Source of the DNA: Pseudocercospora fijiensis CIRAD86
Lineage: Eukaryota; Ascomycota; Dothideomycetes; Mycosphaerellales; Mycosphaerellaceae
Length of the DNA stretch: 64,000 bases
Direction of reading: 5' to 3'
Assembly: GCF_000340215.1 (NCBI RefSeq)
Contig: NW_006921535.1
Location: 1-64,000, forward strand
A program made the translations under genes and the position numbers. The notes under the pieces are model-generated. The model saw nothing but the letters and a program-made list of their open reading frames with translations, did no database searches and was not told the origin of the DNA. Positions within the stretch are counted from its first letter, which is position 1; every line of letters starts with the position of its first letter. Of this stretch, positions 5,241 to 62,110 are shown piece after piece.

Positions 5241-5249
5241 TAGGCGATT

Positions 5250-12913: not shown

Positions 12914-13345
12914 ATGCCCGAGCGGTAGGGAAAGACTCTCTATCGTTACTATAGATACTTAGCGATTGTATTACGCGTACGTAAAGTATAACGAAGGTAT
13001 AGGCGGGTTAGATAATAGCGGTAGGGCCTCGCGGATAATAGCAGTTCGGAATTAGTTATATAGACTCTAGATCTACGCGTAATAGCTACTATAATTCGGT
13101 TATATTAATAGTATATATTACAAGTACCGACTAGGTAGACTATATATAGGTAGGAGGAAAAACTATAGAAAAGGCTAGAGATACGATAGGAAATTGCTCT
13201 ACTTAATCGGCTAGTATTTAGTATATAGACTAGACTATCTATACGCGCGCCTAGTCGGTAACCTATAGGACCTAACGCCTAGGATACGCGTACTTACTAG
13301 TCGTTCTATAGAGGCCTACTTAAGGAGATCTATATTACTATCTAC
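12914..13345 (+). pseudogene. Small basic, Trp/Arg-rich protein relic, unrecognised
   Basis: This is a rare surviving ATG (MPERWGKTLYRYHRYLA after treating TAG as Trp). A plus-strand frame of about 140 codons follows, interrupted only by RIP-type stops. The product would be strongly basic, with segments such as LNRLVFSIQTRLSIRAPSRQ. No domain is recognised. It is transcribed away from SNF2-family relic A. The neighbouring palindromes at 12.5-12.7 kb could belong to its 5' region. A shadow of some minus-strand gene cannot be excluded, because SNF2-family relic B ends just downstream. Confidence 0.4.
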
Positions 13346-13902
13346 TCTCTATATATAGGGCCTATACGAGTATACCTACGCCTTACTCGGCTTCCTCGGC
13401 GTCGCTACTCTTAACTAGTACTATAGACGAGGCGCTAGCCGCTAGCTTAACGCGCTTAGTATAAGCTAATATATCGTCGGCTAGGCGAGGATATAGAGCG
13501 ACTAGTAGAGTAAGAGATCGCTTAGTTAAGTAACGAGCGCGTAGGGTTAGCTCGTCTATAGCGCTAGTATCTCCGATAGAGTCGCTAGAGTTAGGGCGAA
13601 TAGGAGAGCCGGCCTAACTGCCTAGTAAGTATAGCTATATACCTATATAGTTAGGTTCGTAGTTAGATAGCGTTCTAAGGGAGAGAGTAGTAACTCTATA
13701 GTTACTATTATTATTATAATTATCGAAGGGACTAGTAAAACTCCGAAATCTTTAAATAAGGGGCGCGAGAGTAGGAGCGTAGTAGCCGATATTTTATACG
13801 GCCTAAGTAAAATCGGCGTCGCAGTTAGGAGTACGCCGCTAAACGTACTTAAGATATACTATAAAGGGTATTAGCAATTCGACCGGTAACGGAGGTAATA
13901 AC

Positions 13903-13930
13903 TACTATACTAGACGGCGAAATAGATAAT
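13903..13930. repeat. Block A palindrome, probable intron of SNF2-family relic B
   Basis: CTATACTAGACGGCGAAATA lies between the C-terminal lobe and the last exon-like segment of relic B. The splice sites were not resolved. Confidence 0.5.
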
Positions 13931-15094
13931 AACGTATAGTACGACTTACTATACTAATTAGGAATAATAGTAGAGTCGTATTAATCTATAGCGAGGGCCT
14001 CGGTAGCGAAATAGTAAAGGTACTATATAAGTCGAATTAGACGGATATCCTCGGTAATATCGTCGTAATATAGATATTACGCTATAGTATACTTAAGATA
14101 CTCGTAGTCGCATCCTCCCGTATAGTTTAGGTTACGCTTATCGGCCTAAAAGAAGTTATCTAGCGCGGGCTACTAGCAGTCGACGATAGTAGCGACTTCT
14201 CCCGCTATTATACCGCTAAGTAATAGGTAAAAGATAGCTTCGACTAGGACGAGATTCTTATAAATTAGGTTAGAGATATAGCCCTACGTAGTATCTAATA
14301 TCTAGTAGCGAATACTATAGGACTTACGTATATAAGCGTCGGCTATACGCTATCTAATATTAGTATTAGCATATTTACGGAATCGGGTTATAGGGGGCGT
14401 ACCGGTAGTACTATAGGCTCGTATAATCTCGTCTAACTAGATATAGTAGATCTCTTTATCTATAAGCCGGTCGGGCGGTAAGACTACTATAGTAAGCCGC
14501 TCCTAAATATCGAGATAGAAGGTCTACTAGTAGCGCGAGTCGATAGTATCGACGAGGCTTAATTTAAATACTATAATAGCGTAAGTCTATCCTACGCGAG
14601 TATAACGATTAACAATCGAGTTCTTTTTACTAAAGTCGACGATATCTATAATATACTATACGTATATACCGTAATATAGATTAATAGACTCCGTATTAGT
14701 ACGCGAGGATAGGATAATAGCCTAGGTTCGGAGATTATTATTAAAGGCATCCTCGGCGGTAGCGCGCTCGGTATACGTTATACCGGTATAGATAGTAGAG
14801 TATCGGATTTAATATAACTCTAATACGAGGTCGAGGAGTTAGTAATTAAGTAGCTCTTCGACCTAGAATACTACCTTAGACGAAAGCTAGATAATATATA
14901 TATAGACGAGCTATAGTATCGCTAGGTACTTCGGAGATAGGCGGACTAGATAGACGAGTCGATCTATACGATAGCTTAGGGCGGAAAGGGGCGTAGAGCC
15001 CTTTATATAGAACTAGAAGAAGTCCTATATTATTATCTAATATAAGGCGCTAGAGTTATATTAGCGAGAAAGTAGCGGCGGACGGTTAGACTAT

Positions 15095-15166
15095 AAACTA
15101 CTTTACCGGCTAGCGAAATAGTCGTATACGTCTACTAGTTTTCGCTAGCCGGTAAAATAGTCTACG
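15095..15166. repeat. Long inverted pair of block A palindromes in SNF2-family relic B
   Basis: CTACTTTACCGGCTAGCGAA and, about 35 bp on, TTTTCGCTAGCCGGTAAAAT are reverse complements over about 25 bp. They would fold as one hairpin. They lie between coding segments of relic B, in an intron-like position. Confidence 0.75.
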
Positions 15167-16808
15167 GCGTAATAGACTTATAGGGATTAAAGAGTTAGCG
15201 TAGAGGAGGTTAGCCTTCGGTCGGCGATAGTAGCGAGGAGAGGATAGGCGGTACGGAGACTAAGCTAGCGAAATAGTACCTAGTAAGTTAGCGTAGTAGA
15301 GGGGCGCTTAATATTACGGTCTAGCTTATCGATACGCTTAGCGAAGCGATAGTAAGCGGCGCGGTATTCTACCTAGGAAATAGGAGTGTATTATACCTCG
15401 ACATTAACGACTTACTATAAAGGAATATCGTTCCCTAAGGTTATAGTATAGTCGCGGATCTTAAGTTAGTTTCCCTTAAAGCGTCGGAGGACGTAGAGGC
15501 TAAAGGCGAATATCGTTAGATATATCTAGTTATCGTCGTCGAGGGGCCTACGTAGGGCTTTAAGATTAAGTATTTAGAGGACGATATCGCGAAAGTATAT
15601 AGCGCCGGTATAGACGTAGCGAGATAGTAGAGCTATACGATAGATTCGTAAGTCTTCGGGAATAGCGCTCTATCGGAGGCTATAGTCGCGTTAGAAACAG
15701 CTATAGTATATAACGGTATCGGTAACGTCCGAAAATCTAAAGATAAGGTCGGTCCGATCTCGGGCGTCTTATAGTTTAAGAATACGATAGAATAGAAACC
15801 GAGTAAGTATAGCGAAGTCGTTAAAATCGGTAGCTAATAGAGTCGCTATAGCAAATACGGCTACCGTATACGCGTTATTAAAGAGATTCTATATAGCGTC
15901 CGTTTAGAGAGAGAACTACGCTCGGAAGTAGTATACCTCGTTATATATAACGATAGACAGATACGCGGCGCGTAAGTTAGCGAGACGAAACGTATTATCG
16001 GATCGATACTTATCGTATAATTAAGTATTACGGGCAATCTAGAGTTCTCTAATAGTATTATTAGTACGGTCTCTACGCTCTATTCGATAATCGACTGCCT
16101 CGAGATTCTATAGTTACAATTCGTCCTTCTACTAATATAGCTATAGCCGATCCTAAAACTAAGCTAGGCGGTTATATCGCTTACGGTACGCTAGGCCGGA
16201 TATAAGTGTCTTCTAAATAAAGGCCTCGCGAGTAGAGATAATAAGCGTATAAGTAGTCTATAGATCGCGGTCCGAAAGGGATACGATATATTCGATAAGT
16301 CCTAGGCCGTCGGATACATTTAAGTAACGCCGGATAATATAGATAGGATAGCGAGACTCGCTATTAAGCGCGACGAGAGTAGCAATATAGATATAGCGAG
16401 TATAGTTAGGATTAGGACTAAAGTACCGGTTATAGGCATCGCGCTAGGTATTAATCGTCGCGGCGGTCCCGATTTAGTAAATAGGAGCGTAGCGGTAAGG
16501 CGTCGTATAAGTCTTATCTAGCTCGGTACGCAATTTAGCGATAGTCGACTTCTACGCGTTAATATCCTCTTTAAGAGGGCCTAGGCAAATACCGTCGGCT
16601 TTGTACTCTAAGCAATCGAGTATCTTACGCTAGAGCGTCTAGCGGCTACTAACGCCGAATCGCTAGTCGAGGAAAGTATCGACTACTATTATAAGTAGGT
16701 CGCGCGGGTCGTCGTCGGGAATAGTCGGTATATTATAGAACGGGATATAATAGCCGAAGATAGAGTCTAGTACGATACCTCGCTCTATATAGGCGTAGTC
16801 GAGTATAG

Positions 16809-16933
16809 CTACGACGATAGTTAGTAGGAGATAAGTATATATATAGACTATTTTACCGGCCGGCAAATAGATATCTAGACGTATATTTACTAGCTAGTAA
16901 AATAATCTATACGTTAGGATTAACATTTCTTAC
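16809..16933 (-). other. Intron of SNF2-family relic B with paired palindromes
   Basis: Donor GGTAAGAAATG and acceptor CTCCTACTAACTATCGTCGTAG-like site bound 125 bp at the same place as the 9,622-9,758 intron of relic A, just after the Walker A exon. Palindromes at 16,848-16,870 and 16,883-16,905 are inside. Confidence 0.8.
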
Positions 16934-17922
16934 CTTAATATACGATACGCTATTCTTCGATATACTCGGACTAAGCTATAGCAGCGTAGAGGATAGAGAT
17001 AGTCTTACTAGTACCGGTATCGTCGGCGAGAATAGCGCCCTATATAGGTAATTTCTATATTTCGACGATCTATATAATAGCCTATAGTTACTATATCGTA
17101 AGACGGAGTCCGCGAAACGTAATACGGTATAGGTATTTACTAACTTTATCGATCTCGCCGTCTAGGAGTATAGTAACGTCGATATTTATTGCCGTATAGG
17201 CTTCGTTAAATAATAGAGGCGTAGCCGTATACCTAGAGCGATAGTACTATAGGGTATCGAGTATACTAGCGTATAATATATACTAGGCGTCGGTAATAGG
17301 GAACGGGGCATTAGGCTAGGGCGCAAGCTATAGCTAGTTAGTATTAGCCTAGATAGTACTCTTACGCTTACTCGGGAGATATTTTATATTAGCGGGATTA
17401 ATAGTATCCGAAGTCGAAAAAGTTATATCGATACCGTTACTAATATCTCGTAGGAAGGCTCGCTATAGTACCGGATCCTAATCGTTAATCTTATATACGT
17501 CGTACGTCTTATACTACTTATAAAGGACATTTGTTAGGTCGTCTATTATACGTATTATTCGCTAGTAGTTATAAGTGTTATCTACTCGGGTCGACCTAGC
17601 CTCGCCGAGAAAGGCCTTTTCGTCGTACGCGAATTTATATACGTCGCTAGGTATAAGAGGACTAATAACCGGAGAGGGTAGACGCCTAGACAAACGTAGA
17701 GAGCCTAAAGCTAGCACTTCGGGGTCGTCCGCTATATTTAACTTAGAAACGTCCTTAGGTATCGCCTAGGTAGTACTAATTCGATTATAGACTACTTTAC
17801 TAGCTAGAAAATAACGACGGACGGTAGAAGTAGTAGTAGTAGTAGTTAAAGTAGTAGTAGTAGTAGTAGATAGAAAAGTAGGGAAGATACGGAGGAAGAG
17901 AAATATAAATAGATAGCGCATA

Positions 17923-18155
17923 GGCGCTCGGACTAATATACGGGCCGTAGGCGCGCACGCGTTAAATAGTAACGTAGTCGACCTAACTAAAGGCTATATA
18001 AAAGAGTTATCCCGAGCGACGTAGCTAATTTATATAGATAGGCCGGGATTGTATTTCGTTCGCCGCCTTAGTTAAAGCCGAGAAGTAAAGTCTACCGAAA
18101 ACGGGGCAGTATACGATTAAACTTAATATAAGTAGGGTAGGAGGTAAGGTAAAGT
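17923..18155 (-). promoter_or_regulatory. Shared promoter cassette, copy 2 (upstream of SNF2-family relic B)
   Basis: Same block as copy 1: GGCGCTCGGAC, ATAAAAGAG, minus-strand TATATAAATTAGC at 18,024-18,037, CTTCGTT-like and AAGTAAAGTC. The leader side (17,787-17,905) again carries a palindrome followed by a GTAGTAGTA-rich stretch. Confidence 0.7.
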
Positions 18156-18600
18156 AAAGTAGTATAAGATATACTAGGCTAATAGATATAGAATATAGGC
18201 GCGTCTATTTTACTATACGGGATTACGGTTAGTATTAGTAAAAAATAGCGGGTAATAGAGGGCGAGGCGTTACGAGAACGCGATAATTTCCTAGTAGGCA
18301 ATACTATTAGTAGCTAAGTACCGTAGGCTAGCGTATTACGTAGCGTAAGACGAGTATTAAGGCGGATTAGTCGAACGAAGGTAGGGAATAGGGCACGTAG
18401 GAATTCGTAGATAGTATAGTTAAATATAGTTATTCGCGTAATATACGATATAATATACTATAGGACTAATAATATCTAAGCGTATCGTCTGTCTACTAAG
18501 AGGAATAGAGGTACGCCGATAAGGAACTTATATATCGATCTTACGGAAACTATATTAAAGCCCGGGACGCGCGAGTAGAGCCCTCTAAGATATTAATTAG
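18156..18600. other. Interval between promoter cassette 2 and the next minus-strand relic
   Basis: I found no coding frame that I could support. The sequence is RIP-mutated, with no palindrome pair and no tandem repeat. Confidence 0.4.
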
Positions 18601-19720
18601 TACTTTATTTAGGCCTAGATAGACTATATCTCGGCAGATTGCGGTTTAAAGGTACGACCGCGAATACGCTTAATCTCGTCGTTACTAAAGATACGCTCTA
18701 GTATAAAAGCTATAGATAGACGAGTAGAGAGTAGATAGGGCAAGTCTAGCTCGAGATAATAGTAGGCGGGATCGATACGATATAGATAGTATACTAGACG
18801 CTAAGTCCTAGGCGCCGACGGCTAGTTCTATAAGCGTTTCTAGGCGATAGCGGAGATATCGGTTATAGTAGTAACGTCAAATATAGCTAGGCGAGCGCGG
18901 CTATAAGAGTAATAGATAATCGCCTTTACGTCCGAATCGTCTTTAAAGGATCTATAGGCGACGGTACTCTAATATATAAATATATAGTCTAGGGTAACGT
19001 ACGGGATCCGATATATACCTAGTAGTAGATAGAGCGCGTCGTAGGCGAATAGGTCTATATCGATAGTAAACCTAACTTTAGAAGACTATAGGATAATATA
19101 TATATAGATAAGCGATAAGACTACCGTAAACCGATAGGACGGGGCGACTAGTTATATAAGCTAGTAGACGCAATACTCTAGTATAGGAATAGATATAGTA
19201 ACTTTAGGGTACCGCTAGATAGAGTCCTATATATTCGCTAATAATCGAGTACTATACGCTAGTTAGTTAGGTAGTATATAGTTTCGTCGACTATAGACTA
19301 CTTTACTAGCTAGTAAAGGTAATAGATATCGCTAACTATTTACTAGCCGGTAAAGTAGTCTATAGCGTAGCTAACTTATAGTAGGGCACTATCGAAGGGA
19401 GAATATACGTAGGGGCGGGATAAGAAATAAATACTACGGGATATATTATATACGGTCCTAACGAGCTTATAGCGTATAGTAGTATAATAGGGGCGAGCGC
19501 TTACCTAGGATACGAATTAGACTAGGTCGATAAAGTAATTACATATAATATTAAAGTGTTTATAGTAGCGATTATAGAAGATAGCTACGGCTTATTAATC
19601 TACGCGGGATCGGCCTAGCGTACTATCTATAGTATTATCGTCGGCGACCTTTACTATAGTAGTAATCGGAAGCAACGATATATATAGTTTATAGTATATA
19701 TACGGATATAGTAGTAGTAT
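18600..19720 (-). pseudogene. Unrecognised coding relic downstream of promoter cassette 3
   Basis: A minus-strand frame at 18,600-18,960 is open except for RIP stops. It reads, for example, KAIIYYSYSRARLAIFDVTT and ELDLPYLLSTRLSIAFILER, ending KRIRGRTFKPQSAEI. I do not recognise the family. A palindrome pair at 19,291-19,367 probably marks an intron. Promoter cassette 3 and a palindrome at 19,722-19,760 lie at the 5' side. Its place in the array suggests a gene co-regulated with the two SNF2-family genes. Confidence 0.5.
19291..19367. repeat. Paired block A palindromes
   Basis: CTATAGACTACTTTACTAGC and CTAACTATTTACTAGCCGGT face each other with CTATAG at both outer ends. They form an inverted pair in the middle of the 18.6-19.7 kb relic, which is an intron-like position. 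Confidence 0.65.
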
Positions 19721-19843
19721 AACTATAGACTAATTTGCTAGGCGGAAAAGTTACTAGGCGAGTAGAGTAGGCGGTAGTAGAAGTAGGTAGTAAGATAGAA
19801 AAGAAGTCGAGGAGTAGAAGGAGATATAAATTAGCGCGATATA

Positions 19844-20045
19844 GGCGCTCGGGCTAAGACTAGTAGACTAGCGGTTTACTTTACTAAGGCGTATATAAAA
19901 AGGTCGTCCTAAGCGATATAGCGAATTTATATAGCGAGGTTAGGATTGCGCTTCGTTCGCCGCTTTAGTCGAGGCTAAGAGGTAAAGTCTACCGAAACAC
20001 GCTAGTATAGTATTAAACTTAATCTAAGTAAAGAGTGTAAAGTCG
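19844..20045 (-). promoter_or_regulatory. Shared promoter cassette, copy 3
   Basis: GGCGCTCGGG, GCGGTTTACTTTACTAA, GTATAAAAAGG and minus-strand TATATAAATTCGC (19,921-19,934) match the other copies. CGCTTCGTTCGCCGC and GTAAAGTCTACCGAAA follow. It lies upstream of the minus-strand relic at 18.6-19.7 kb. Confidence 0.7.
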
Positions 20046-29600: not shown

Positions 29601-31004
29601 CTCGGATAGCGGTCTCTCGCGTAAAGAGTAACTCTATCTTATACTTAATAGCCTCTAAAACTTCGTTATCGCGGTCGAAGCCCTAGTTATAATGCTAAAA
29701 GTAGTTAAATATAAGGAGTTGCCCTATCTAAATAATAGCGGAGAGATAGTAATTAAAGTCGTTCGGCTCCTACTATATACCCGAATACGGTTATACCGTA
29801 TAAAGGGCGAGGTAGCTAAGGAGCGGGGAGCAGAACCGACGACTACTAATTAGGTACTAGAATAGAGAGAGTAATAACTAGGAAATAAGAGGATATAGTT
29901 CTAGTTCTTCCGTCTCGGTAATACCGCTTCGGACGCGGTCGCTAAGTTTATTCTAGAGTTCGCGCTATTCGTCGGTCGGTATTACTTAGGCGGGGCTATA
30001 GTCGACTTTTTTATCGACTTTATCGCTTACTTAACTAGCGACTTCGGCGTCGACGTCGTCGTTAAGTTTATCGGTAGGCGATATTATAGAAGGGAAAAAT
30101 AGAACTTTAGGGGAGATATAACGAATAAAATATGCTAGCGCGTATAGTATAGCGTTAGCGTATTTAAGTTCGCTCGAGCGGGTCTTATAGCGCCGAAAGC
30201 GAAAATGTTTATAATAGTCGGACTTCTATATTATATTATAAAAGTTAGCGAGGGCTTACTTACGGGAATTAGTAAGGTTGAAATAGGGGCTACTTTTACT
30301 ATAATACCTTATCGTATAAGAGAACGCTCGGTAAGCGATAGCGATAACTTCTACGGTATAGGGCTTATTATCTTCTTTAGGGAGGCGGATAGCGGCCTAT
30401 ATTTCGTTTTTATAGAGTAAGACGACGTAAAGGTCGATAAAGAGTTACTAAATCTAGGGGGAAAGGGTAGATACGTAGGCTAAGCTATTGTAAACGACAT
30501 TTCGATCCTCGTCTAGTTTCTCCTAGATATCGGCCTAGGCTTTAATTAGGGCAGACGCAAACTAGTCGTTATATAATAAGGAGGGAATAGGCACTATACG
30601 AGCGCGACGACAGACCTAGAATAGGCGATTCTATCTAGGTTCGTACCTAGCTTTAGGATAGAAGAATTGCTATACGTAGATATTACTCTCCTATAGGCGA
30701 TTAGGTATCTCTTATAGGCGGGCTTTTCTACTACCGCCCCGAGTCTAAGTATTAGTCTACTTATGTCGCGTTTTATAATACTCTTATATCGAGGTACGCG
30801 AGTAAAAGACAGCCGTATATTATTCGCCCTATTCGTCGATAGTAGTATATCGGAAACAATCGAAGTAGAGCGGGAACTCCGGGGCTTAATTATCGGTTAG
30901 CTAGGGCTAAATTACCTAGTCGGGTATTATAGCAATATCGGGGAACGGCTTAAATTCTTCGATAAGAAGGCGACGGATAGCAATAGGAATAGTATATCGG
31001 TATT
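26640..31004 (-). pseudogene. Telomere-linked RecQ-type helicase relic
   Basis: A minus-strand gene readable for about 1,400 codons with RIP stops and no frameshift. The N-terminal part (31.0-28.6 kb) has features typical of the large N-terminal region of fungal telomere-linked helicases, such as RNYSLYTTNILYTNANLFA. Then come MQNPRLQ and TSAGKSLLF (Walker A, 28,270-28,290), IFIDECYLT (DECH box, His now Tyr by RIP, 28,006-28,017), VVYLTTTL (motif III), DRVLVFVYSLDYAK, YFTAASRTTSEKEQLL, LFLIATPTLGEGFDVLRIRV and SSRARRDR (motif VI, 27,453-27,473). Subtelomeric RecQ helicases of this kind occur in many fungi. The hAT element is inserted at its 5' end, so its first exon may continue beyond 40,934. 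Confidence 0.88.
30997..31004. repeat. Target-site duplication, left copy (TCGGTATT)
   Basis: The eight bases TCGGTATT immediately precede the left terminal repeat. They are repeated exactly at 40,927-40,934 after the right terminus. Eight-bp duplications are the hallmark of hAT transposition. Confidence 0.95.
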
Positions 31005-31149
31005 TAGACCCTGTAGTAGTTCGGTTTCCGAACTACTAAACGTATATAGTTTAGTTTCTTAGCGGCGAACTAGCTCCCTAGTTCCGGTTTAGTTTTTTCG
31101 AACTATATAGATTCCTAGTTTAAACTAGAGACTATATTAGTTTTACTAC

Positions 31150-31445
31150 AAGGACACTCTTATTCGACTGCCGGCTACGATTGCCGGCTATAATAGTAAC
31201 TCTGTTATATTTACTAGGCGTAGTTGCCGTTGCTAGGGCGTAGTTGCCGTTGCTAGGGCGTGGTTTTGCTATAAGGACACTCTTATTCGACTACCGGCTA
31301 CGATTGCCGGCTATAATAGTTACTAGGTTGTATTTACTACGCTTTATTACCGTTGCTAGGGCGTAGTTGCCGTTGCTAGGGCGTAGTTGCCGTTGCTAGG
31401 GCGTAGTTACTATTGCTAGGGCGTAGTTGCCGTAGTTGCGAAAGC
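31150..31445. repeat. Left subterminal repeats of the hAT element
   Basis: A 20-bp unit GTAGTTGCCGTTGCTAGGGC occurs twice near 31,210-31,260 and about four times at 31,340-31,430. A ~48-bp phrase beginning AAGGACACTCTTATTCGACT and containing two GCCGGCTA words occurs at 31,151 and 31,273. Such subterminal arrays commonly serve as transposase binding sites in hAT elements; that role is inferred here. Confidence 0.75.
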
Positions 31446-31900
31446 TTACCTGTATAACGTTACGTAGGCGGCAACAATTAGGGCTTCGCGATATTCTTAC
31501 ACTTTTAACTTCTTCCTCTATATCTATACCGACAATAACTACTATACGCTACGCCTCCGCCCCTTTCCCTTACAATAGTAAGAGAGAAGCGCGCCGCGCG
31601 CTAAACAGAAGATAGAACTAAAGACCGCGAGTTTGTTTTGCCTAAGCGTCCAACTAAAAAGCGCAAGACTAAAGAGGAGTACTCTACGAAGAAGAATTCC
31701 GTACGAGACCGCGAGAGAAAGGACAAGATAGATAAGGATAAAAGAGCTAAGGATAAGAGAAGAAAGGCGCGGAATAAGGCATTCTATCGATAGCTAGCGC
31801 CTATAGAAAAAAGTAAAGGTTGGAATAAGAAGATAACCTAAGAGAAGGCTAAGAGGAGGAAAGAATTGCGGCTAGTTTTCGAGCGTGAAGTTCTAGTAGC

Positions 31901-32000
31901 GTAAGTCAATCTAGCTAGCGGCCGTAGCTAGCAGCTATAGCCGGCAGCCGTAGCCGGTAGCTATAGCCGGCATATTTTTCTTTAACACGTTAACTAATAG
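31901..32000 (+). other. Intron with tandem GCCGGC motif (hAT element, first gene)
   Basis: A 100-bp intron, donor GTAAGTCAATC and acceptor AACACGTTAACTAATAG. About five copies of a GCCGGCAGCYGTA-like 12-mer fill its centre (31,917-31,972). Confidence 0.8.
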
Positions 32001-32488
32001 TATTTAGACCTATAGTCGCTACCTCTATCGATACGACCGATAGTAACGGAGATGTTTAGATAGCCGAGAACAATAATGCTAGAGTTTAGGATGCCGCGAC
32101 AGAGCTTAATACTGCGAATAAAGGAACTAAAAAAAGCGAGGAGATACTATACGTCGATCTAGTAATAGGTACAGTCTTAGGGCCTAACGCTATAGACGAT
32201 AAGCGCTAGGAGTAGATCGAGTACAGTTAAAGAGACGAGATACTAGTAAAGGGCTAAGGTATAAGTCCTATTAATCTAGAAAATTATAGTTAAAGCTACT
32301 ACGAAAAGCTAGCAAGGATTAGAATCGAGACTAGTCGTCTTTATATCCTCGATATAGAGTAGAAGTTTCTTTATTAGTATTAGAGCGAAGCCTTTGCGTC
32401 TATAAAGGCAAAGTGGCTTGCGATTAATGCGATCGGGGCTAGGTATCTAGGGACGGTAGAAGTGTTACTATAGGAGGAAGGGGTATAG

Positions 32489-32546
32489 GTAATTATTCTA
32501 TGCTCGGTATATATAGCCGGCGTTCGTAGCCGGCAGATACTAATAG
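32489..32546 (+). other. Intron with paired GCCGGC motif (hAT element, first gene)
   Basis: A 58-bp intron, donor GTAATTATTC and acceptor CAGATACTAATAG. Two GTAGCCGGC-type words lie at 32,514-32,535. Confidence 0.75.
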
Positions 32547-33884
32547 TTAAACAGAAAGCGTTTCTCGAAGGCAGAGTGCTACTACTATATGAAATCTTTA
32601 CTAAGGCAGAGAGGGCTTGTATCCGGAATCTAAGCTACTAGTAGGATAGGTTAGCGTTAGAATTCTCTAAATCTCTATATAAGCCTCCGAAGGATTACCT
32701 ATTTTAGCGATACGGCTTTATCTCGACTACTCCGTAGGTACCCGAAGAAGCTCGAGCGCTCTTTAAGGTCTTTACTAAGAAGCGGAAGGAGTTCGAGGAT
32801 TAGGATTAGTTAATAGAGCTATTAGTTAGTCTTAGGTTTCGTAGTTAGATTCGGCCTAAGCATTTGCTTATCGAGTGTCTTATACCGAAAGAGGATAGAT
32901 TGAGACTAAAAACGAGCTTGGATTCGTTAGGTATAGTAGCTCGGTTCCGTTAGTAGGAGAGAGCCGCCGTATAGAAGGCAAAATTTAGGTAGTTAGGGTA
33001 GCTAGGAAAGAAATTCTAGTAGTTAGGCTAGCTAGGGTAGCTAGGAAAAAAAATCTAGTAGTTAGGTAGCTAGGAAACAAAAAAAAAAGGTAGCTAGCTA
33101 TTTACTACCTAGCTATTCCTAACGATACGATGCTATAAAAGAAAGGGTGTTTCTCTACAGCTACTAGTACACATCTACTACTCCTAAGTCCTTACCTTAC
33201 CGTACGAAACCTTAAAATATGCCGACCGACATTGTATATACACTAGGCGCTATACTAGGAAGGGTAACAACGAGACGATAGTCGAAACAGTCTAGTATAC
33301 GAGCGAGATTGCGACAACGTCGAGAGGAGGTCGTATACTTACCTTCGAGCCTATCGAGTCCTAGACTACGATTAGGGCTAGATTCATCCTCTCCGAATCC
33401 TAGTAGTAGGAATTCATTATAGGGTACTACTACCTAGTCCTTACCTTTACGGAGTCTAAGTAGAAGGTTATTCGGAGATATAAGAACATCGAGTATCAAC
33501 CCGGAAATCTTCGAAAAGGCTAGCTAGGCGTATCTTTAGAAACCCGAGTATATAGAGCAGTTCAATTAATAGGTCTATAAGATATAGTTCCCTTTATACT
33601 TACGTTCGAAGGAGTGTAAACTCCGGAAGTACTCGATGCGATAGGGGAGTAAGGAGCGAACGGACATATTCTAGAAGTTCTTTATAGAGGGGGCATTGCA
33701 CCGTTATACGACTTCTCGACTTAAAGGTTAACTAGTAATTGTCTATAACTTCTGCGGTTCAATCTTAAAACACCCGAAACTAGGGGATAGGAACTTATCG
33801 CCTACGAACTATCTCTATTCTAAACGGTATCGGGAATCTTAAGGAGAGAGGAGAGTTAATGTAGATACAGCGTTCTAGAAAGAG

Positions 33885-33984
33885 GTATATCTTCTAAAAT
33901 GCCGGCTATAGCTGCCGGCTATAGCTGCCGGCTACAGATTCCGGCTACCTAAATCAACCGTAGAGATCTAGCTAATTATTATAG
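33885..33984 (+). other. Intron of the hAT transposase with tandem GCCGGC motif
   Basis: Donor GTATATCTTC, acceptor CTAGCTAATTATTATAG, 100 bp. Four GCCGGCTA-type words, spaced 12 bp, lie at 33,901-33,947. Confidence 0.8.
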
Positions 33985-34918
33985 GCTACGCTTAAGGAAG
34001 CTCTAGGATTAAAGGCTACCGATTTCTCCCCCGAAGACTTTAAGCAACTAGCAAACGAAATGCTAGCTATAAACGGTCTTCCGGAAGACTTCTACGAAAG
34101 GGAGTCTATATAGAAGACATATCTATATCTTATAAACTACCCTCCCCTATTTCTCGGCGCGACAACCTAGCGTATTATATTCGAAAAGAACAAAGAGGCT
34201 GCGTTAGACGATATTCGGGAGATCCTCCGTAATACTCGCCGAGTAGCTATTACTATCGATAGCTAGTTAAGCCGGACTATAAGAGCCTCCTTCCTCTCGA
34301 TTATGCTATACTTTATCAATTCGGATTAGAAACTCTAGGAACTAATAATCGGATTCCCTAAAATTCTAGGTTCCTATACTAGTAAGGATATAGCGAAGCT
34401 TGTCTATACGGCAATAGATAGGGTTAGCGTAATAACGAAACTAATCTCGATTACTACGGACAACGCTAGTAATAATCGAACATTATATAAGGCGTTGTAT
34501 ATACAATTCACTCGTATATATCTTTAAAATCACTAATTGTATCGATAGGGTCGAGTACGTAGAGGAGATTACAAGGTCTACAATCTAGCTTAATCTTCCG
34601 AATGTTAAGCTCGCTACGATTCCGGATACGCACGATAATACGTACGATAATAACGATAAAGAGGAGCCTATTAATAGCCCTAGCCCTATTAAATCGGAGC
34701 CGACGTCGTTGCTAGTTGCATCCCTATAGAAGTTTCCCTACCTCGCTTATATAGTTCAAATCGCGATCCGAGCCCTCTTTAAGACGCTTAAAATTGCACT
34801 ATTAAACGACGACTAATAGAAGATCCTAGATAAGGATAAAGTAAAGTCGAAAGTCGAGAAACTTATTATAGCAATAAGACGGGATAAGGCAGAGAGCCTC
34901 GCTCTCGTTTTGTATAAG

Positions 34919-34987
34919 GTATAACTTTTGTCCGTAGCCGGCACCTATAGCCGGCAACCTAGTATAGTTCTAACTCTTTTTCTCTAG
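34919..34987 (+). other. Intron of the hAT transposase with paired GCCGGC motif
   Basis: Donor GTATAACTTTT and acceptor GTTCTAACTCTTTTTCTCTAG-type site (branch CTAAC), 69 bp, phase 0. Two words, GTAGCCGGCA and ATAGCCGGCA, lie 13 bp apart. The transposase frame continues after splicing. Confidence 0.88.
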
Positions 34988-36333
34988 CTTCGTCGTCTAG
35001 CAATATATACGAACTCGAGCTTATAGAGATATAACCGATTCGAGGCTATTTAAAAGAACCTAATCGAGCGCCCTAAAACCGATACCTAGAATATCGCATA
35101 GAATAAGCGATAGCAAAAGCGGCCTCCTTAGCGCCTACTCCGTTTTACCTAAGACGTTAAGACCCGGTTCGATTCGACTTTCTATATAGTTACGAGGGGA
35201 TGTACTTTACGTACCGCTCTCGAGATCTATTAGAGTTCCGAGGGTATTAAGTAGCTCGGCCTTACCGCCGCCGAATAGCGCTAAGTAGAGTATCTCGTCG
35301 ATATTAGTAAGTATTACGCGAAGGTTACTACTACGATTAGAAGAACCCGAGGACCGACGATCTACCTTATCTTTACGTACTACAACTAGCTCTTTAACGA
35401 GCTCGAGGAAACCGTAGCTAAGCTAGCTAGGAAGAGCGTTCCCTAGAAAGTAGCTATAACGAAAGCTATAGACACCTCCTATACTAAGTTGCATAAATAT
35501 TACAGTGCTACCTTTAACTCGTTCGGGGATATCTATAGCGTTGCGTACTTGCTCAACCTAGTAGAAAAGGATATATACTAGTAGAGGCCGGAATAGAAGG
35601 CGGACGAGATGTAGCCGAAGCATTACTAGACTATTCTAGAAAAGATGTTCTACGAGCGTCGGAAAGAAACTAGTCCAAATGCAGCTCCTACAAAGAAAAA
35701 GAAGGTTTAGAAGGCTCCGACATTATACCTATTTCGTAGGTAGGAAGTAGAGGCAGAAGAGGAAGCAACTACTAAAGTAAATAAAGAAGAGTTCGATCTC
35801 TATCGGCGCGCGAGTAAGTACAAACCCGTAGGCTCGGAAAGAGGGCTAATAATCTCTAGATCTTACCGGTCTTCTAGACGAATTCGGAGACGATATTCTC
35901 GCTATATAGCAGCGGTTAGAGCCTAAGTTTCTAACGATAGCGTCGGTCGCTCGGGACGTCCTCGCTATCCCGAGCGTAGGCATAGGCTATAAGAGGTCTT
36001 TTAGTATCGCTCGTTACTAGGGCCGCTTTAATCGAATATACTCGCCTACTACCTTCGAATCTATTATAGTATTCCGATACTATCTCCTCTACTAGAATCG
36101 CTAAGGCAAGTTACTAAAGATTATACTAAAGGAGTTAATCGAGGAATTAGAAAACCTTAAGATCGAAGAAACCTAGGAGCGCGAAGAGAATGCGAAATTT
36201 AGTCTAAGCGAAACCCTAATTAGCGATAACGAAGAGGAGGAGGGCGGAGGTAGAAGGCGATACCGGGTCGAGAAGCGGAAACGTGTATAGGCTTAGAGCA
36301 GCTTTAAGGAGACGAAGCGTTTACGTATAAGGT

Positions 36334-36646
36334 AATATAGCCGGCGTATGTAGCCGGTATATATCCGAAATGTGTTTCGAATTCCTAGGACCTAAACAGA
36401 CTAGTTGCTATAGCAACCGACCCCGCTTACCTGCGGACTATTTCTAATTCTCTATTCGCTCTTCCTCTCCTTCTTCCCTTTCCCTATATTCTTAAAGACA
36501 AACATGCCTTAAGGATTCGGCTCTTTAGGCCTTCCTAAGCCGGCTACCTCCCCTTCCTTAAGCTACTATCCTTTATTCGAATCTAACGATAACCTAATAA
36601 GGCGGTTTAATAGAAGACCATTTGTTCTAGAAGGCAAGAAGTATTA
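36334..36646. other. Intergenic interval between transposase and divergent H3 gene
   Basis: Two GCCGGC-type words lie at 36,340-36,362 and a CT-rich stretch at 36,440-36,500 looks like a fungal promoter or 5' leader. An ATG at 36,504 opens a short frame ending near the H3-variant ATG. It could be an upstream exon. Confidence 0.5.
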
Positions 36647-37288
36647 ATGTCTCCTTACGATTATATGCTTATTAATTTTCTAGGTCCTACCGATATGCCC
36701 TCGTCGCCTAAACGCGCAGATAAATATCTTTAGAGGCTAAAGGGTAAGGGTAAAGTAAGCTAAGTATAGGGAGACCGTAGCGAGAACGAGATATCGGAAG
36801 AGTAAGGCTCTCCGTAGTATATACGAAGGAAGGGGGTTCCTCGGAAAACAGTACCGAAAAACAAGAAGGCTGTAGGTAGACAGGAGAAGGCTAAAAAGAG
36901 TAGGCGGACGAAGACTATCGCGAAGAAAAGTTATCTTTCTATTAAAAGAAAGGGAACAAGGCAGGACTCGACGACAAAGAAGCGGCGCTTCAAACTAGGT
37001 ACTATTGCCCTTCGCTAGATCCGGCTTTTCTAAAACAAAAGAGGGACCGAGCTTTTAATCCCTAAGACTCCCTTCTAGCGACTCGTCCGAGAAATTATAT
37101 TAGATTTTCGGTCTAGTATACGATTTACGGCTAAGGCGATTAGTGCTCTTTAGGAAGCTACGGAGGCATTTCTCGTAACCGAGCTTAAGCTTTTAAACCT
37201 CCTTGCTATCTATACGAAGCGGGTTACTCTTTAAAATAAAGATATACAGCTTCTAGCTAAAATTCGGCGTCGGTTTATAGCGGATTAG
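36647..37288 (+). pseudogene. Divergent histone H3 variant with long basic N-terminal extension (copy 1)
   Basis: From the ATG at 36,647 one frame runs about 213 codons with RIP stops only. Residues 1-125 or so are rich in Lys/Arg (RRKGVPRKTVPKNKKAVGRQ, KKSRRTKTIAKKS). Then a histone H3 fold is clear: LGTIALRWIRLF, GTELLIPKTPFQRLVREI, ILDFRSSIRFTAKAISALQE, ATEAFLV, LLAIYTKRVTL and KDIQLLAKIRRRF. This aligns along the whole H3 core (GTVALREIRRYQ, LPFQRLVREI, LQE, AYLV, AIHAKRVT, KDIQL). The region between αN and α1 is slightly longer than in canonical H3, as in some centromeric H3s, but the CenH3 identity is not established. The final TAG may be a RIP-made stop. It is cargo of the hAT element. 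Confidence 0.88.
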
Positions 37289-37389
37289 TTGGAAATTGTA
37301 TTTAGTCGTTAGATTAACCTAGGAGGAGGCCTATTTTCGCATCCTTTTGCCGGCTATAGGTACCGGCTATATTTCTAATTTTATCTCCG

Positions 37390-38040
37390 CGCCGTCCCTA
37401 AATCTAAGGTACGAAGTAGAAACCTAGCGCTCTATATTCACCCGGCTCTTATAGAGACGAGCTACATTTAGATTAGTTTCTTCGTATATCGCGACCTAGC
37501 GGGTAGTAAGCGAAAGGGCGATAGAACGTTTATAATACGTCTCTATTTAGACCTAAAACACAAAGGTCCTAAGGAGCCCTAGCATCCTAACTATAAGGAG
37601 ATTCTTTAGCATTAGCACTTTGATCCTCTATACTGCGAGGCAGATAGTAAGCCTGCGAGAGAGAAACTTTAACGAGAAATTCTCTATAATACGTAGCGCT
37701 ATTGTATAGCTATAGATGCGCACTAAGTCCGGCAACTCGAAGAAGAATTAAGATAGCGTATTAGCGACCGAGGAGGAGATCGATAGTATACTAGTAGAGT
37801 CGAGGTCTTATAAGCGAAGTATAAGATAATATAGGCTCTTAGTCGTATAGAGTAACGTACTATATAAATAACTAGGCGTGCTACTCTTATTCACTTACGA
37901 CCTATATCCTAGGATGCTCTTGTCGTACTTTTTATACTCTTTTCTAATACCTTACCTATAATCGCTCCGCGATAACCGAGTGAATATAAGCTATAGGATT
38001 TCCGCTCGGTACCTTAGCCTTCGAGATACGGCGGAGTTGA
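37390..38040 (+). pseudogene. Unrecognised gene of the hAT element (copy 1)
   Basis: A plus-strand frame with RIP-type stops reads SFFVYRDLAGSKRKGDRTFI, RLYLDLKHKGPKEPQHPNYK, HFDPLYCEADSKPAREKL, then QREILYNTQRYCIAIDAHQV and SRVEVLQAKYKIIQALSRIE. The pattern of a short β-rich segment, a Lys-Gly, then a His-Phe-Asp-Pro-Leu stretch is loosely like the DUF3435 tyrosine-recombinase-like proteins of fungi. I would not assign it on this. The 3' part is duplicated in tandem at 38,041-38,395. The 361-bp period is not a multiple of three, so the second unit is out of frame and probably not coding. Confidence 0.45.
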
Positions 38041-38395
38041 TTCTCTATAATACGTAGCGCTATTGCATAGCTATAGATACGTACTAAGTCCGGCAACTCG
38101 AAGAAGATTTAAGACAGCGACCGAGTAGGAGAATAATAGTATATTAGTAGAGTCGAGGTCTTATAAGCGAAGCACGAGATAATATAGGCTCTTAGTCGTA
38201 TAGAGTAACGTACTATATAAATAACTAGGCGTGCTACTCTTATTCACTTACGACCTATATCCTAGGATACTCTTCTCGTACTTTTTATACTCTTTTCTAA
38301 TACCTCACCTATAAGCGCTCCGCGACAACCGAGTAAATATAAGCTATAGGGTTTCCGCTCGGTACCTTAGCCTCCGAGATAGGGCGGAGTTGAAT
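37680..38395. repeat. 361-bp direct tandem duplication
   Basis: TTCTCTATAATACGTAGCGC starts both units, at 37,680 and 38,041. The second copy lacks about 9 bp. Both end GGCGGAGTTGA. The mirror copy of the element (61,005-61,719) has the same duplication, so it arose before the two copies separated. Confidence 0.92.
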
Positions 38396-38946
38396 TTAGA
38401 GCGATAGCCGGCACTCGTAGCCGGCACTCGTAGCCGGTATATAGAGACGGTAGTAGGCCTTTTCCTACTAAATAACTAGCTTGTTTAGTATAGCCTACCT
38501 AATATTTCTTATATTTACTAGCAATAGGCCTAGGTTACTTATAAGATTACTATAGCTAGTAAAGGCATTACTAAAGAATATCTATACTATAGTAGGATAC
38601 TATTATCACGCCGGCTATTCATTAAAAGGAGGCTTTCGCCTATTACTATGCCGGCTATATATACCGGCTATATTTCAAAGTCTGCCGTACCTGCCTTTTT
38701 TAGCCGTGCTTACCTTTTTCAGCCGTACCTGCCTTCTTTCCTTGCTCTAACGTTACTATAATATAGGCTTGCGCGAAGCTTACTCTATTGCCTAGCGATA
38801 CCGCGATACTACCGCTATATTCAACCTTCGTATCGATACCTATACCTCTACGCTCTATATCTACTACCTCCGTAATACCCTCGCTCCGCGCGCGCCTTCG
38901 TATACCTTCGTAACGCACTTTTTTCCTCAATTCGACGACTTTTACA
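38396..38946. other. Intergenic and promoter region of the element's H3 gene
   Basis: GCCGGCACTCGTA-type words lie at 38,405-38,440 and again at 38,590-38,670. The 250 bp before the H3 start are pyrimidine-rich on the plus strand and end TTCGACGACTTTTACA, like a fungal 5' leader. A minus-strand open stretch at 38,700-38,930 overlaps this region and is treated as a shadow. Confidence 0.5.
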
Positions 38947-39238
38947 ATAGCGAGTCTACTTAACTAAGTTACGACGCCTCGCAAGAAGGGACCTAGTACT
39001 TCTACGGGTCGTAACAAGATCGGAAATAATAGAACGAGTATAGTATATTAACGCAAGATAGCTGCTACTGCTACCGCTAGCTCCGGTGCTAGAAAGGGCG
39101 TCGCGAGTAAGGCTCCGCGTAAGACAACGGCGGGCAAGGCTCCGCGTAAGACAACGGCGGGCAAGGCTCTACGCAAGACGATAACTAGCGCTTCTACTAC
39201 TAGTAGCAATCGTGCGAAGCGTCGATAGCGCTTAGGAA

Positions 39239-39317
39239 GTAAGTCCTATTTGTAGCCGGTAGCGTAGCCGGTAGCGTAGCCGGCATTCTTACTATCTTTT
39301 TACTAATCCTTCTTTAG
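39239..39317 (+). other. Intron 1 of the element's H3 gene with tandem GCCGGC motif
   Basis: Donor GTAAGTCCTA, acceptor TTTTTACTAATCCTTCTTTAG-type site, 79 bp. Three GTAGCCGGTAGC-type 12-mers lie at 39,253-39,287. Splicing joins GGA-A to CC-GTA and restores G-T-V-A-L-R of H3. Confidence 0.92.
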
Positions 39318-39500
39318 CCGTAGCCCTCCGTAAGATTCGGTAGTATTAGAAGAGTTCTAAGCTCCTAATCCGCAAAACTCCTTTCTAACGACTTGTTCGC
39401 GAAATTGCCTAGGATTACAGAATAGACCTTCGCTTCTAAGCCTCCGCGATAGGCGCCCTTTAAGAGGCTACAGAAGCCTACCTAGTTCGTATCTTCGAAT

Positions 39501-39548
39501 GTATGTTTCTCTTCTACCTCTTTTCGGACTATACTAATACTATTTTAG
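39501..39548 (+). other. Intron 2 of the element's H3 gene
   Basis: Donor GTATGTTTCT, branch-like ACTAATAC, acceptor TATTTTAG, 48 bp. It has no GCCGGC word, so the motif is common but not universal in the element's introns. Confidence 0.85.
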
Positions 39549-39958
39549 CGGTCAACCTTATAGCTATCTACGCGAAGCGTATAACGATTATAGACAAGGA
39601 TTTCAAAGCACTCGATTAGATTCTAAAAGGCTAGAATGTCTACATTCGAGATAGTGCTAGATAGGATGGATATACTAGTAGGAAGGATGTTCGTAGTGTC
39701 GTCTGTAAGCTTTTCTGTATACGAAATGAGCCGCTATTATACGGCGCTGCATACCGCGCTCTAAATACTCTCTAAGCATATGTATATAGTATAGTATACT
39801 TTATTAGCCGTACGGAATGGAAGTCTCCCAAAATCCCGTTAGTACTAAGGAGTAAAAAGGCCGGCTACGCTGCCGGCTACGCTGCCGGCTACGCTGCTAG
39901 CTACGCTGCTAGGTTTTTCAAAGAACTAAAAGAAGATAGACATTCCGGTTGATTTGTA

Positions 39959-40498
39959 TTAGTTTAGATTTTTATAAAAAGAAAACAGGGAAAAATAAGG
40001 AAGGTTGAAGAGCCTAATAGTTATAGTTATAGGCACTATCCCTGTTTTCTAGAGCATATTATATACCTGCCTTCGCAACTCTACCTAATACTCCCTCTAA
40101 ATATCCTTATACTCTACCTACTAGAAATTCAACTAGGTACCTAGACCTGCAGCTGCCTCTATATCTTTTACTATCTTCTATAGGTTGAAGGCCTCTTCTA
40201 TAGCAGCCTCTACCTCCTTATACAATACGAAGTTACTACCTACCCTACCCTTTATATCTCCTAAATAACTAAGAGTTCTAAGGAACGAACTAGCATTCGG
40301 CCTTAGTATAGCGAGTGACTAGTAGAACGTTCTACAGAGCTGCCTTATAGCTCTTTTATATACTATACCGATACCGAGGGAGGAGCTATCCTAGTACTTA
40401 ATGTTGTCGAATGGTTCGGTAGGAAAGTGTATAAACTTCTTAAGGAGGAGGACTTCTAGGGAAATCGATGAGTTCTACCTAGATCTGGATAAAGACAT
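39959..40498 (-). pseudogene. 180-codon gene convergent with H3, unrecognised (copy 1)
   Basis: From ATG (40,496-40,498) a minus-strand frame of 179 codons runs to TAA at 39,959-39,961. It has only a handful of TAG codons, all convertible to Trp or Gln by RIP reversal. It reads LEVLLLKKFIHFPTEPF, SSSLGIGIVYKRAIRQLCRT, GRVGSNFVLYKEVEAAIEEA and ITIRLFNLPYFSLFSF. The middle is helical and charged; the end is hydrophobic. It ends 6 bp from the H3 stop, tail to tail. It is the least decayed frame in the window and is kept in both element copies. The family is unknown. Confidence 0.6.
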
Positions 40499-40926
40499 TC
40501 TACTAAGCAGTTAGGGAATTAAACCGTAAACGAAAGGATAAAGTTTATACCTAAGGAGTGCAGTTTCCGAACTAAACTATAATGCCTTGTGTGTATGTAT
40601 GCTTTTAATTGGTTAGTGCCCTTAGCTAATTGTCTATAGATTTGAGGTCATATAAGTACCTTTATACAACTACGTAGCCTAAGTAGGATTCGAAAATTCT
40701 ATAAGTACTAAGGACTAAAAATGCCGGCTACGCTGCCGGCTACACTACTAAGTCTTACAAAGGGCTTGCTTGAAGCTACGTATACATTCGTACACTTCTT
40801 AAAAACCGATAAATTATATAGTTCGAACCAGCTACTTATATAGTTGCTTAGCAAACTAACCCAAACCAAACCAGAGTTTCGGCTTAGCAAACCAAACCAA
40901 ACTAACCCGAACTACTGCGGGGTCTA
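40499..40926. other. Right terminal region of the hAT element (copy 1)
   Basis: Noncoding. It contains GCCGGCTACGCTGCCGGCTA at 40,723-40,742 and a terminal CAAACCAAACCAAACTAACC tract, then the terminal inverted repeat (40,907-40,926). A 60-codon open stretch inside it at 40,708-40,890 is chance. Confidence 0.75.
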
Positions 40927-40934
40927 TCGGTATT
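40927..40934. repeat. Target-site duplication, right copy (TCGGTATT)
   Basis: Exact match to 30,997-31,004. Removing the element and one copy joins block A sequence seamlessly into the 5' end of the RecQ relic. Confidence 0.95.
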
Positions 40935-57200: not shown

Positions 57201-58415
57201 GTATCGGCTCCTCTTCTTCCGCGTCTATATCCTAGTCTTAGGAATACTTATAAAAGTAACTATCTACGGCGAGCGCTTAGTAAAGTACTATCTAACTATA
57301 AGGGGTCGATATAATAGGTAGGTTATCTAGTTCCTCGTCGGAATTAACCCTAGCGTCGCTACTTAAAGGACTACTTAAATCCGATTAGATTAAACTACTA
57401 GTTACCGAAGGTACTCGCGAGCTTTCGAGTATAACGTCGCTATTATTGTCTCGACCCTACTAACCTCGCGGTAGCGTAGGTCGTAGTAGTAGTAGGGGTT
57501 CTAGTAAGGTAAGGCGTAGGTTACGCCCTCTAGGATTTAGCCGGATACGTAGTAGGAGCCCGCGTTATAGCTACGATAGGTAAGCTCTAGGACGAGGCCT
57601 TTATAAGCTCTCTTTTAAATTAGACCTAGTAATACTATCTCTTAATCTAGACGGGCTTCGCCTTAAGCTAGGGCTAGGAATACTATCTCTAGAATTAGAC
57701 TTAGATATACTCGCGCTTACGATCGGTCGACTACGCTATACCGAGGCTAGTAGTTAATTCGTTCTATCTCTTAAAGTAGGTAATAAGGGGCTCTCTAGAA
57801 TAGGAGGGAAGGAGAGACTTCTTCGAGAAGTTAGCGAAGTAAGTTAAGTAGCGGACTTCGAAGCTAGTAATAGGGGAGAATAAGCTACGCTTACTTAGGA
57901 GTCTAGCTTAGGCGGCGTCGTAGGTAACGAGAGGCTCTCTAGAATAGGAGGGAAAAAGAGACTTCTTCGAGGAGTCGGCGAAGTAGATTAAGTAGCAGAC
58001 TTCGAAGCTAGTAATAGAGAAGAATAAGCTACGCTTCCTTAGGAGTTAGGCTTAGGCGGCGTCGCTAGTATAAAAGCTAGCGAGGAAGGCGTCGCTAGTA
58101 TAGAAGCTAGCTAGGAAGGCGTCGCTAGTATAGAAGCTAGCGTAGGAGGTATCGCTAGTATAGAAGCTAGCTAGGGAGGTATCGCTAGTATAGAAGCTAG
58201 CGCGGGAGATATCGCTAGTATAGAAGCTAGCGCGGGAGGTATCGCTAGTATAGAAGCTAGCGTAGGAGGTATCGCTAGTATAGAAGCTAGCGCGGGAGGT
58301 ATCGCTAGTATAGAAGCTAGCGCGGGAGATATCGCTAGTATAGAAGCTAACGCGGAAGGTATCGCTAGTATAGAAGCTAGCGTAAAAGGTATCGCTAGTA
58401 TAGAAGCTAGCGCTA
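54230..58415 (+). pseudogene. Very long coding relic with C-terminal minisatellite, unrecognised
   Basis: Plus-strand frames with RIP-type stops cover most of this stretch. Around 56.6-57.5 kb one frame gives VSLFTLVYIIATLPVDLPIS, RKEKYVNILVSSNIKQLISR, ELTILYDVRKYIRELVKLTL and FYEYNFRRYRLLFFRVYILV. Around 55.4-56.0 kb another reads VRSGSINQLKIGSTIRLIDA. I could not follow one frame throughout, so introns or two genes are possible. The end is repetitive: a ~140-bp direct duplication (57,790 and 57,933) and then about 11 in-frame copies of a 30-bp unit encoding ASIEASAGGI. The second hAT copy is inserted 57 bp after the last unit. The family is unknown. Confidence 0.5.
58063..58415 (+). repeat. 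30-bp coding minisatellite (ASIEASAGGI repeat)
   Basis: GCTAGTATAGAAGCTAGCGC plus GGGAGGTATC repeats about 11 times with few changes. The 30-bp period keeps the frame, so it encodes a 10-residue repeat, ASMEASAGGI before RIP. Confidence 0.88.
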
Positions 58416-58900
58416 GTAGGGATTATACTATAGCGGACGAAGGGGGTCTAGTAGCTATTAAAGCGGGGCGGTTAGACCCCGCAGTGGTTCGGGTTGGTTT
58501 AGTTTAGTTTGCTAAGCCGAAACTCTAGTTTAGTTTGGGTTAGTTTGCCAAGCAACTACATAAGTAGCTGGTTCGAACTATATAATTTATCGGTTTTTAA
58601 GAAGTGTACGAATGTATACGTAGCTTCAAGCAAGCCCTTTGTAAGACTTAGCAGTGTAGCCGGCAGCGTAGCCGGCATTTTTAGTCCTTAGTACTTATAG
58701 AATTTTCGAATCCTACTTAGGCTACGTAGTTATATAAAGGTACTTATATAACCTCAAATCTATAGACAATCAGCTAAGGGCACTAACCAATTAAAAGCAC
58801 ACACATATATAAGGCATTATAGTTCAGTTCGGAAACTGCACTCCTTAGGTATGAATTTTATCCTTTCGTTTACGGTTCAATTCCCTAACTGCTTAGTAGA

Positions 58901-59440: not shown

Positions 59441-59446
59441 TACAAA

Positions 59447-62009: not shown

Positions 62010-62110
62010 CGGAGATAAAATTAGAAATGTGGCCGGCACCTGTAGCCGGCAAAAGGATGCGAAAATAGGCCTCCTCCTAGGTTAATCTAACGACTAAATA
62101 CAATTTCCAA

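Follow-up and report, generated by a model that had tools for sequence, protein, structure and literature searches.

Two divergent histone H3-family genes within an inactivated hAT element of Pseudocercospora fijiensis

The element and its two H3-family genes

The window analyzed here is a stretch of 64,000 nucleotides at the start of contig 4 (NW_006921535.1) in the genome of Pseudocercospora fijiensis CIRAD86 (73.9 Mb, 30 contigs), and it contains a complete hAT element of 9,922 bp (31005–40926, read at both ends) in which two different histone H3-family genes, here termed H3a and H3b, lie between the termini together with the remains of a transposase gene (Table 1). Reading of the termini showed that the boundaries given by an earlier model-made interpretation (the sequence-only reading) are exact, with flanking 8-bp target-site duplications (TSDs) and 20-bp terminal inverted repeats (TIRs) whose left and right copies match at 18 of 20 bases. 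The TIR pattern, allowing up to two mismatches, occurs 468 + 470 times in the same genome, compared with 3 + 2 for a reversed control. Identical 8-bp TSDs were found in seven of the eight full elements read at both ends (the window element, L047/L048, L039, L051, L052, L053, and L055), and L054 is the only one without them. A second copy, which also lies partly in the window, is 97% identical to the first across an arm of 5,528 bp and retains both H3a and H3b in readable form, as the sequence-only reading had described.

The assignment of both genes to the H3 family, likewise made from the sequence alone, is borne out by the histone profile PF00125, which matches H3a at 3.4e-24 and the core exon of H3b at 2.8e-22. 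Element frames were read with TAG and TAA taken as glutamine (Q). If the TAG at 37286 serves as its stop, H3a comprises 197 codons, and its core has no intron; for H3b, we infer a start codon that is an ATG changed by repeat-induced point mutation (RIP). Core identity to the host H3 is 0.55–0.59 for H3a and 0.57–0.69 for H3b, and the two element cores share 0.51–0.59 with each other. AlphaFold models of H3a reached a predicted local distance difference test (pLDDT) score of 50 with 5 rows and 59 with 33 rows, and the helices predicted at this low confidence (pLDDT 59) follow the H3 order. A homologue search with the H3a alignment returned 7,810 proteins; the 120 best, which were listed, consisted mainly of ordinary or fused H3s, and relatives of the element genes were not separable from them. 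The tail of one 181-aa H3 (P0090) contains repeated GKAPRKTVAGKAPRK and resembles that of H3b.

H3b carries two spliceosomal introns in all 11 copies read. The intron A donor GTAAGT and acceptor TTTAG are present in 11 of 11 copies and its TACTAAT branch site in 10 (changed in L041), while the ACTAAT branch site and TTTTAG acceptor of intron B are present in every copy and its GTATGT donor in four, the other seven having ATATGT or ATATAT, as expected from RIP. Excision of both introns gives GTVALR and IFESVNLIAIYAKR, with uninterrupted H3 homology at both points. The length of intron A does not keep the frame in these copies (79, 91, 102, 103, and 116 nt); the lengths of the H3b tail change only in steps of three (225, 240, 252, and 255 nt). 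Intron 2 of the host H3 gene sits after base 1 of the G44 codon and intron A after base 1 of the codon that follows, a 3-nt offset with no change of phase, for which the simplest reading would be a host-shared intron shifted by one codon. If intron A is shared with the host gene in this way, H3b would most simply have come from genomic DNA with its intron. An independent gain almost at the host intron site may instead explain intron A, and the host H3 gene has nothing that corresponds to intron B. A splice-signal scan of the element gave six donor-branch-acceptor starts compared with 1.43 (sd 1.26) in Markov sequences; three of the six match proposed introns (31901, 39239, and 39501) and three were not proposed (35814, 40589, and 40593), and two other proposed introns, at 33885 and 34919, miss the strict donor pattern of the scan. 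Between the two element subfamilies described below, intron B shows zero transversions in 28 of 28 pairs, compared with a difference of 17% at exon third positions, which suggests gene conversion or unusual constraint.

The copy described here spans the full length of the element and is now dead, inactivated by RIP. The RIP index (CpA+TpG)/(ApC+GpT) is 0.36 in the element, 1.36 around the host H3 gene, and 0.10 and 0.09 in the surroundings of the element, which is thus less damaged than its flanks. Among 150 histone matches scored of 772 candidates in the genome, the two free of stops are the host H3 on contig 6 and a CenH3-like gene on contig 5 (C5:606604, named by resemblance), and no stop-free element copy was present among those scored.

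Table 1. Features of the hAT element and its second copy, in window coordinates
Feature	Position	Strand	Remarks
Left TSD	30997–31004		TCGGTATT; same 8 bases at 40927–40934
Left TIR	31005–31024	+	TAGACCCTGTAGTAGTTCGG; 20 bp
CCGGCTA/TAGCCGG clusters	31170–40742	.	13 clusters of 2–3 motifs; first matches at 31170, 31293, 31938, 32514, 33901, 34935, 36338, 37349, 38405, 38650, 39253, 39860, 40723
Open reading frame (ORF) 0, ORF0	31563–31900	+	very basic reading frame
Putative intron joining ORF0 to ORF1	31901–32007	+	contains CCGGCTA array
ORF1	32008–33079	+	unknown protein; no Pfam match
hAT transposase gene	33176–36338	+	inactivated, in pieces
Putative transposase introns	33885–33963, 34919–34987	+	array-bearing
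Transposase core	33991–34530	+	contains TTDNASNN
Dimerisation-like region of transposase	35859–36338	+	
H3a	36695–37288	+	long basic tail and complete H3 core; start and stop inferred from frame
ORFx	37373–37684	+	open frame, function unknown; mostly unaligned in four subfamily II copies
Direct duplication	37679–38393	.	two units about 355 bp apart, 94% identical
H3b	38947–39622	+	exons 38947–39238 (tail with GKAPRKTT repeats), 39318–39500 and 39549–39622 (core); end uncertain
H3b intron A	39239–39317	+	79 nt; GTAAGT...TACTAAT...TTTAG; holds CCGGCTA array
H3b intron B	39501–39548	+	48 nt; GTATGT...ACTAAT...TTTTAG
Right TIR	40907–40926	-	20 bp
Right TSD	40927–40934		TCGGTATT; repeats left-end bases
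Second element copy	58473–64000	-	extends to contig position 68394; flanked on either side by TSD GGGGCGGT

Transposase, repeat arrays and surroundings

The transposase with a TDNASNN motif, which the sequence-only reading had named, was recovered as a core with TTDNASNN that can be aligned to two hAT frames that are open in this genome, one at 33% identity across 93 aa (52 bits) and the other at 28% across 140 aa (51 bits), although the E-values of these alignments (4e-12 and 1e-11) are flattering because the database held only six segments. A Pfam scan of the element pieces gave no catalytic-domain match for the transposase, and the dimerisation region, likewise named in the sequence-only reading, is weak, matching PF05699 at E 0.0088 and 16.3 bits, under the 21.4-bit cut-off, and the open frame L003 of the same genome at 8e-4 in a small set. 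Seven of the 10 pieces scanned had no histone or transposase match at 0.1, and one weak match was unrelated. The post-transposase spacer of L053, in the region matching window 36.33 kb, holds ~280 bp of extra sequence, seen in this one of the 10 copies aligned there.

Short CCGGCTA arrays are distributed along the element, in introns and spacers, and 50 of the 62 window matches to the relaxed motif fall inside the 15,450 bp of element sequence present in the window. The tandem form occurs 436 + 418 times genome-wide (first 100 places listed) compared with 0 in the control. Clusters at 31.92, 33.90, 34.93, and 39.25 kb lie inside introns (three proposed introns and intron A of H3b), and three of these four differ in length between copies by frame-breaking amounts; the array at 32.51 kb, whose length is constant across copies, may lie inside another intron. 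There are zero clusters in the H3 cores or in the catalytic core of the transposase. Subterminal motifs are found in other hAT elements, and by analogy the arrays might be transposase binding sites, which is a guess. One or two of the motifs are kept in a 373-bp miniature inverted-repeat transposable element (MITE) that has the TIRs of the element (L043–L046), with TSDs that are identical in L044–L046 and agree at seven of eight bases in L043. In the MITE search, all 40 scored of 109 candidates matched. The MITE is nested in L041 and L042, and in the latter it lies directly upstream of H3a (L042 3895–4266, TSD GGTAGCAC).

The contig opens with ~235 bp of CCCTAA telomere repeat (window 1–235), which places the element ~31 kb from the chromosome end. 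A third element begins at contig 4 position 69706 (L048 5707 onward), ~1.3 kb past the second copy, so that three copies are clustered near the telomere. Tandem arrays with periods of 48 bp and 30 bp occupy window 1501–2328 and 57995–58473, the latter adjoining the right end of the second copy. Read-through Pfam scans of 3001–11000 and 11001–20000, in one frame each, gave no match.

Subfamilies, constraint and the origin of the H3 genes

Two subfamilies of the element, with ~74–86% DNA identity in the main segments, each carry H3a and H3b, and the H3a/H3b paralogues predate the subfamily split. Subfamily II includes L039, which is complete (8.6 kb, TSD GAAGTAAA at both ends), and L040–L042, each with one end within the fetched stretch. 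Besides ORFx, part of the right arm is largely unaligned in these four copies, and the left halves of the subfamilies were compared with L039 alone, as the L040–L042 stretches hardly cover this half. Between subfamilies, the H3a proteins are 75–76% identical, much of the tail included. The view put forward in the sequence-only reading, that the histone cargo belongs stably to the element, thus agrees with its presence in both subfamilies and, according to the available part of Dhillon et al. (2019; PMC6710886), in six species. In a genome search with the H3b region of subfamily II, the 11 best matches (88–100% identity) were on contigs 11, 12, 17, 20, and 23; 40 of 897 candidates were scored, and the next match, at 87%, leaves no sharp gap. 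The 12 core scaffolds given in the available part of PMC4981457 include scaffold 12 and not 11, 17, 20, or 23, and putative dispensable chromosomes may be where most of subfamily II resides.

Constraint after the subfamily split was assessed with transversions because RIP makes transitions. Between the window element and L039, the pooled H3 cores have transversions at 21 of 189 third positions and 17 of 377 first and second positions (p 0.0034), and the transposase at 56 of 855 and 50 of 1714, respectively (p 1.8e-5). The H3b core alone gave p 0.0066 in this comparison and 0.0063–0.029 over the four subfamily II copies, and a spacer in an arbitrary frame gave p 0.12–0.45.

The explanation that we favor, and consider reasonably probable, is that a fungal H3 gene was the ancient source of the H3 genes, which were retained and went on evolving as element genes for as long as the element could move, and which have since been inactivated. 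In its favor are the complete termini with TSDs, the occurrence of both genes in two subfamilies, the H3b introns, the third-position excess in the H3 cores and the transposase, and, as an independent published case, the transcribed H3L gene of Pyrenophora tritici-repentis (PMC3538342). A number of results weigh against it. The third-position signal is modest overall: it is real in the transposase, of moderate strength in H3b, and a matter of direction alone in H3a, whose core by itself has 6 of 104 third-position and 6 of 208 first- and second-position transversions (p 0.17, not significant). The tails have 10 of 166 and 26 of 330 (p 0.82), and ORF0 (p 0.31) and ORF1 (p 0.19) show no third-position excess; furthermore, the two H3 cores were pooled after the parts had been seen, and the four subfamily II copies in the H3b test are not independent. 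In-frame stops interrupt 148 of the 150 scored histone matches, so that every element protein described here is a read-through. Intact relatives did not appear in a search with the H3a tail alone, which gave no candidate, or in the ORF1 protein search, where none of 2,512 candidates reached E ≤1. The tree does not settle where H3a and H3b belong, with none of five groupings rejected (p-AU, the p value of the approximately unbiased test, 0.20–0.45). Host intron 1 has no recognizable counterpart in H3b, and the H3a core is intronless, so that capture of a transcript may still hold for H3a.

Two separate captures, of H3a from a processed message and of H3b from a genomic H3 gene, are quite conceivable, if somewhat doubtful. 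They would fit the unlike intron content (none in the H3a core, two in H3b), the unrelated tails, the mutual identity of only 0.51–0.59, and the tree, in which the H3a copies form one group and the H3b copies another and the two groups do not come together. On the other hand, the tree test did not reject a grouping of H3a with H3b as one clade (p-AU 0.316), and in the aligned copies both genes share two changes relative to the host H3, C110 to I or L and H113 to Y.

A less likely explanation, which we regard as rather improbable, is that of a passenger, in which one capture of a retrocopy or spliced transcript of H3 was multiplied along with the hAT element and promptly reduced to pseudogenes by RIP without ever being useful to it. 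The available part of PMC6710886 describes exons joined directly where the host gene has its introns, and every extra copy as affected by RIP, to which can be added the intronless H3a core, the lack of a recognizable host intron 1 in H3b, and the stops in all element copies seen. The absence of introns expected of a retrocopy is found in the H3a core but not in H3b (11 of 11 copies), which has two introns, one of them matching host intron 2 in phase and offset from it by 3 nt. The divergence of the cores (51–59% from each other, 55–69% to the host H3) is also far above RIP-type change, and the third-position transversion excess in the H3b core and the retention of both genes in two subfamilies likewise speak against a passenger. 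A single chance capture, the outcome that the sequence-only reading had set against its own view, does not hold as simply stated: the two paralogues are older than the division into subfamilies, and the H3b core shows constraint after it.

That H3a or H3b is a CenH3 acquired to act at centromeres is very improbable. H3a has a long basic tail unlike that of H3, and its EAFLV is as in the host CenH3-like gene (C5:606604); however, both element proteins keep the H3 spacing of helices 1 and 2, and their identity to the host H3 (0.55–0.69) is higher than to the CenH3-like protein (0.51–0.58), so neither the identities nor the loop length are those of a CenH3. Joining H3a and the CenH3-like gene in one clade carried the highest likelihood cost of the groupings tried (8.16 units), although it is not rejected (p-AU 0.201). 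Frames that resemble H3 only because stops were translated as Q, in TGA-poor DNA damaged by RIP, would be an artefact; long frames do come easily in a region without TG and CA dinucleotides, but this explanation is excluded by the PF00125 matches (3.4e-24 and 2.8e-22), which span the H3 core and recur at one position in many copies. PMC6710886 also describes these sequences, from independent work.

With long-standing H3 genes of the element as the favored explanation, it would be plausible for the element to have had a function in chromatin. Silencing marks are set on the ARTKQTARKS block of H3, and this canonical N-terminal block has no clear counterpart in the aligned H3a or H3b tails. H3a and H3b proteins, if made, would replace H3 in nucleosomes, probably on or near the element DNA. 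Because neither tail has a clear counterpart of the block, such nucleosomes might take the silencing marks set there less well, and weaker marks would perhaps help transcription or transposition of the element, as general knowledge of H3 suggests. If the H3 genes were indeed working and selected, a DNA transposon of a eukaryote would be supplying a chromatin protein of its own, with a bearing on how transposons meet heterochromatin and RIP.

Comparison with known systems

Pack-MULEs of plants are DNA transposons that hold host gene sequence between terminal repeats, usually as fragments and in non-autonomous elements. The window element, a hAT of the autonomous type, resembles them in its host gene cargo and differs in having near-complete genes and a transposase gene. 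H3-carrying hAT elements have been published, so that the base finding was already known and the histone cargo is not the novelty that the sequence-only reading took it to be. As described in the available parts of Dhillon et al. (2019; PMC6710886), the genome of P. fijiensis (~74 Mb) has 784 H3-like copies, the original H3 gene is on scaffold 6, and an H3-carrying hAT family, inactivated by RIP, is present in this species and five relatives, with elements of 9.5–9.9 kb, 20-bp TIRs, 8-bp TSDs, one or two H3-like sequences, and RIP of CA to TA. The window element matches this family in length (9,922 bp), in its two H3-like genes, and in its RIP bias, scaffold 6 corresponds to contig 6 here, and the element is almost certainly a copy of the published family.

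A second system is the hAT element of Pyrenophora tritici-repentis with a transcribed H3L gene, which is neither H3 nor CenH3 according to the available text of Manning et al. (2013; PMC3538342). Like the window element, it combines a hAT transposase with a functionally uncharacterized ORF and an H3 gene that has diverged and has an altered tail, but it is 5.6 kb long with one H3 gene, and its copies are nearly identical and mostly intact. The part of PMC6710886 available reports no DNA similarity between the two elements. Beyond these two papers, no other hAT element with an H3 gene turned up among the papers listed for histones in transposons. A broader proposal, which we offer tentatively and think unlikely as a whole, would be that a hAT lineage of the Dothideomycetes encodes its own H3 variants as conserved accessory genes, with two paralogues selected in both P. 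fijiensis subfamilies and the expressed H3L of P. tritici-repentis possibly belonging to one ancient family, and that these elements would package or mark their own DNA with nucleosomes lacking the usual N-terminal H3 marks and so counter host silencing.

Relative to the published description of the P. fijiensis family, as far as its text was available, the present analysis adds the introns of H3b, the two subfamilies with their constraint test, the CCGGCTA arrays, the direct duplication, and the MITE; that part of PMC6710886 reports the element to be free of repeats and without a dimerisation domain. There, introns are described as absent, capture of a spliced transcript or retrocopy is inferred, and a 16-aa insertion is noted in the second H3-like copy (Dhillon et al., 2019). 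This insertion is the 48-nt intron B of H3b, and the intron evidence amends the published inference on how the gene was captured.

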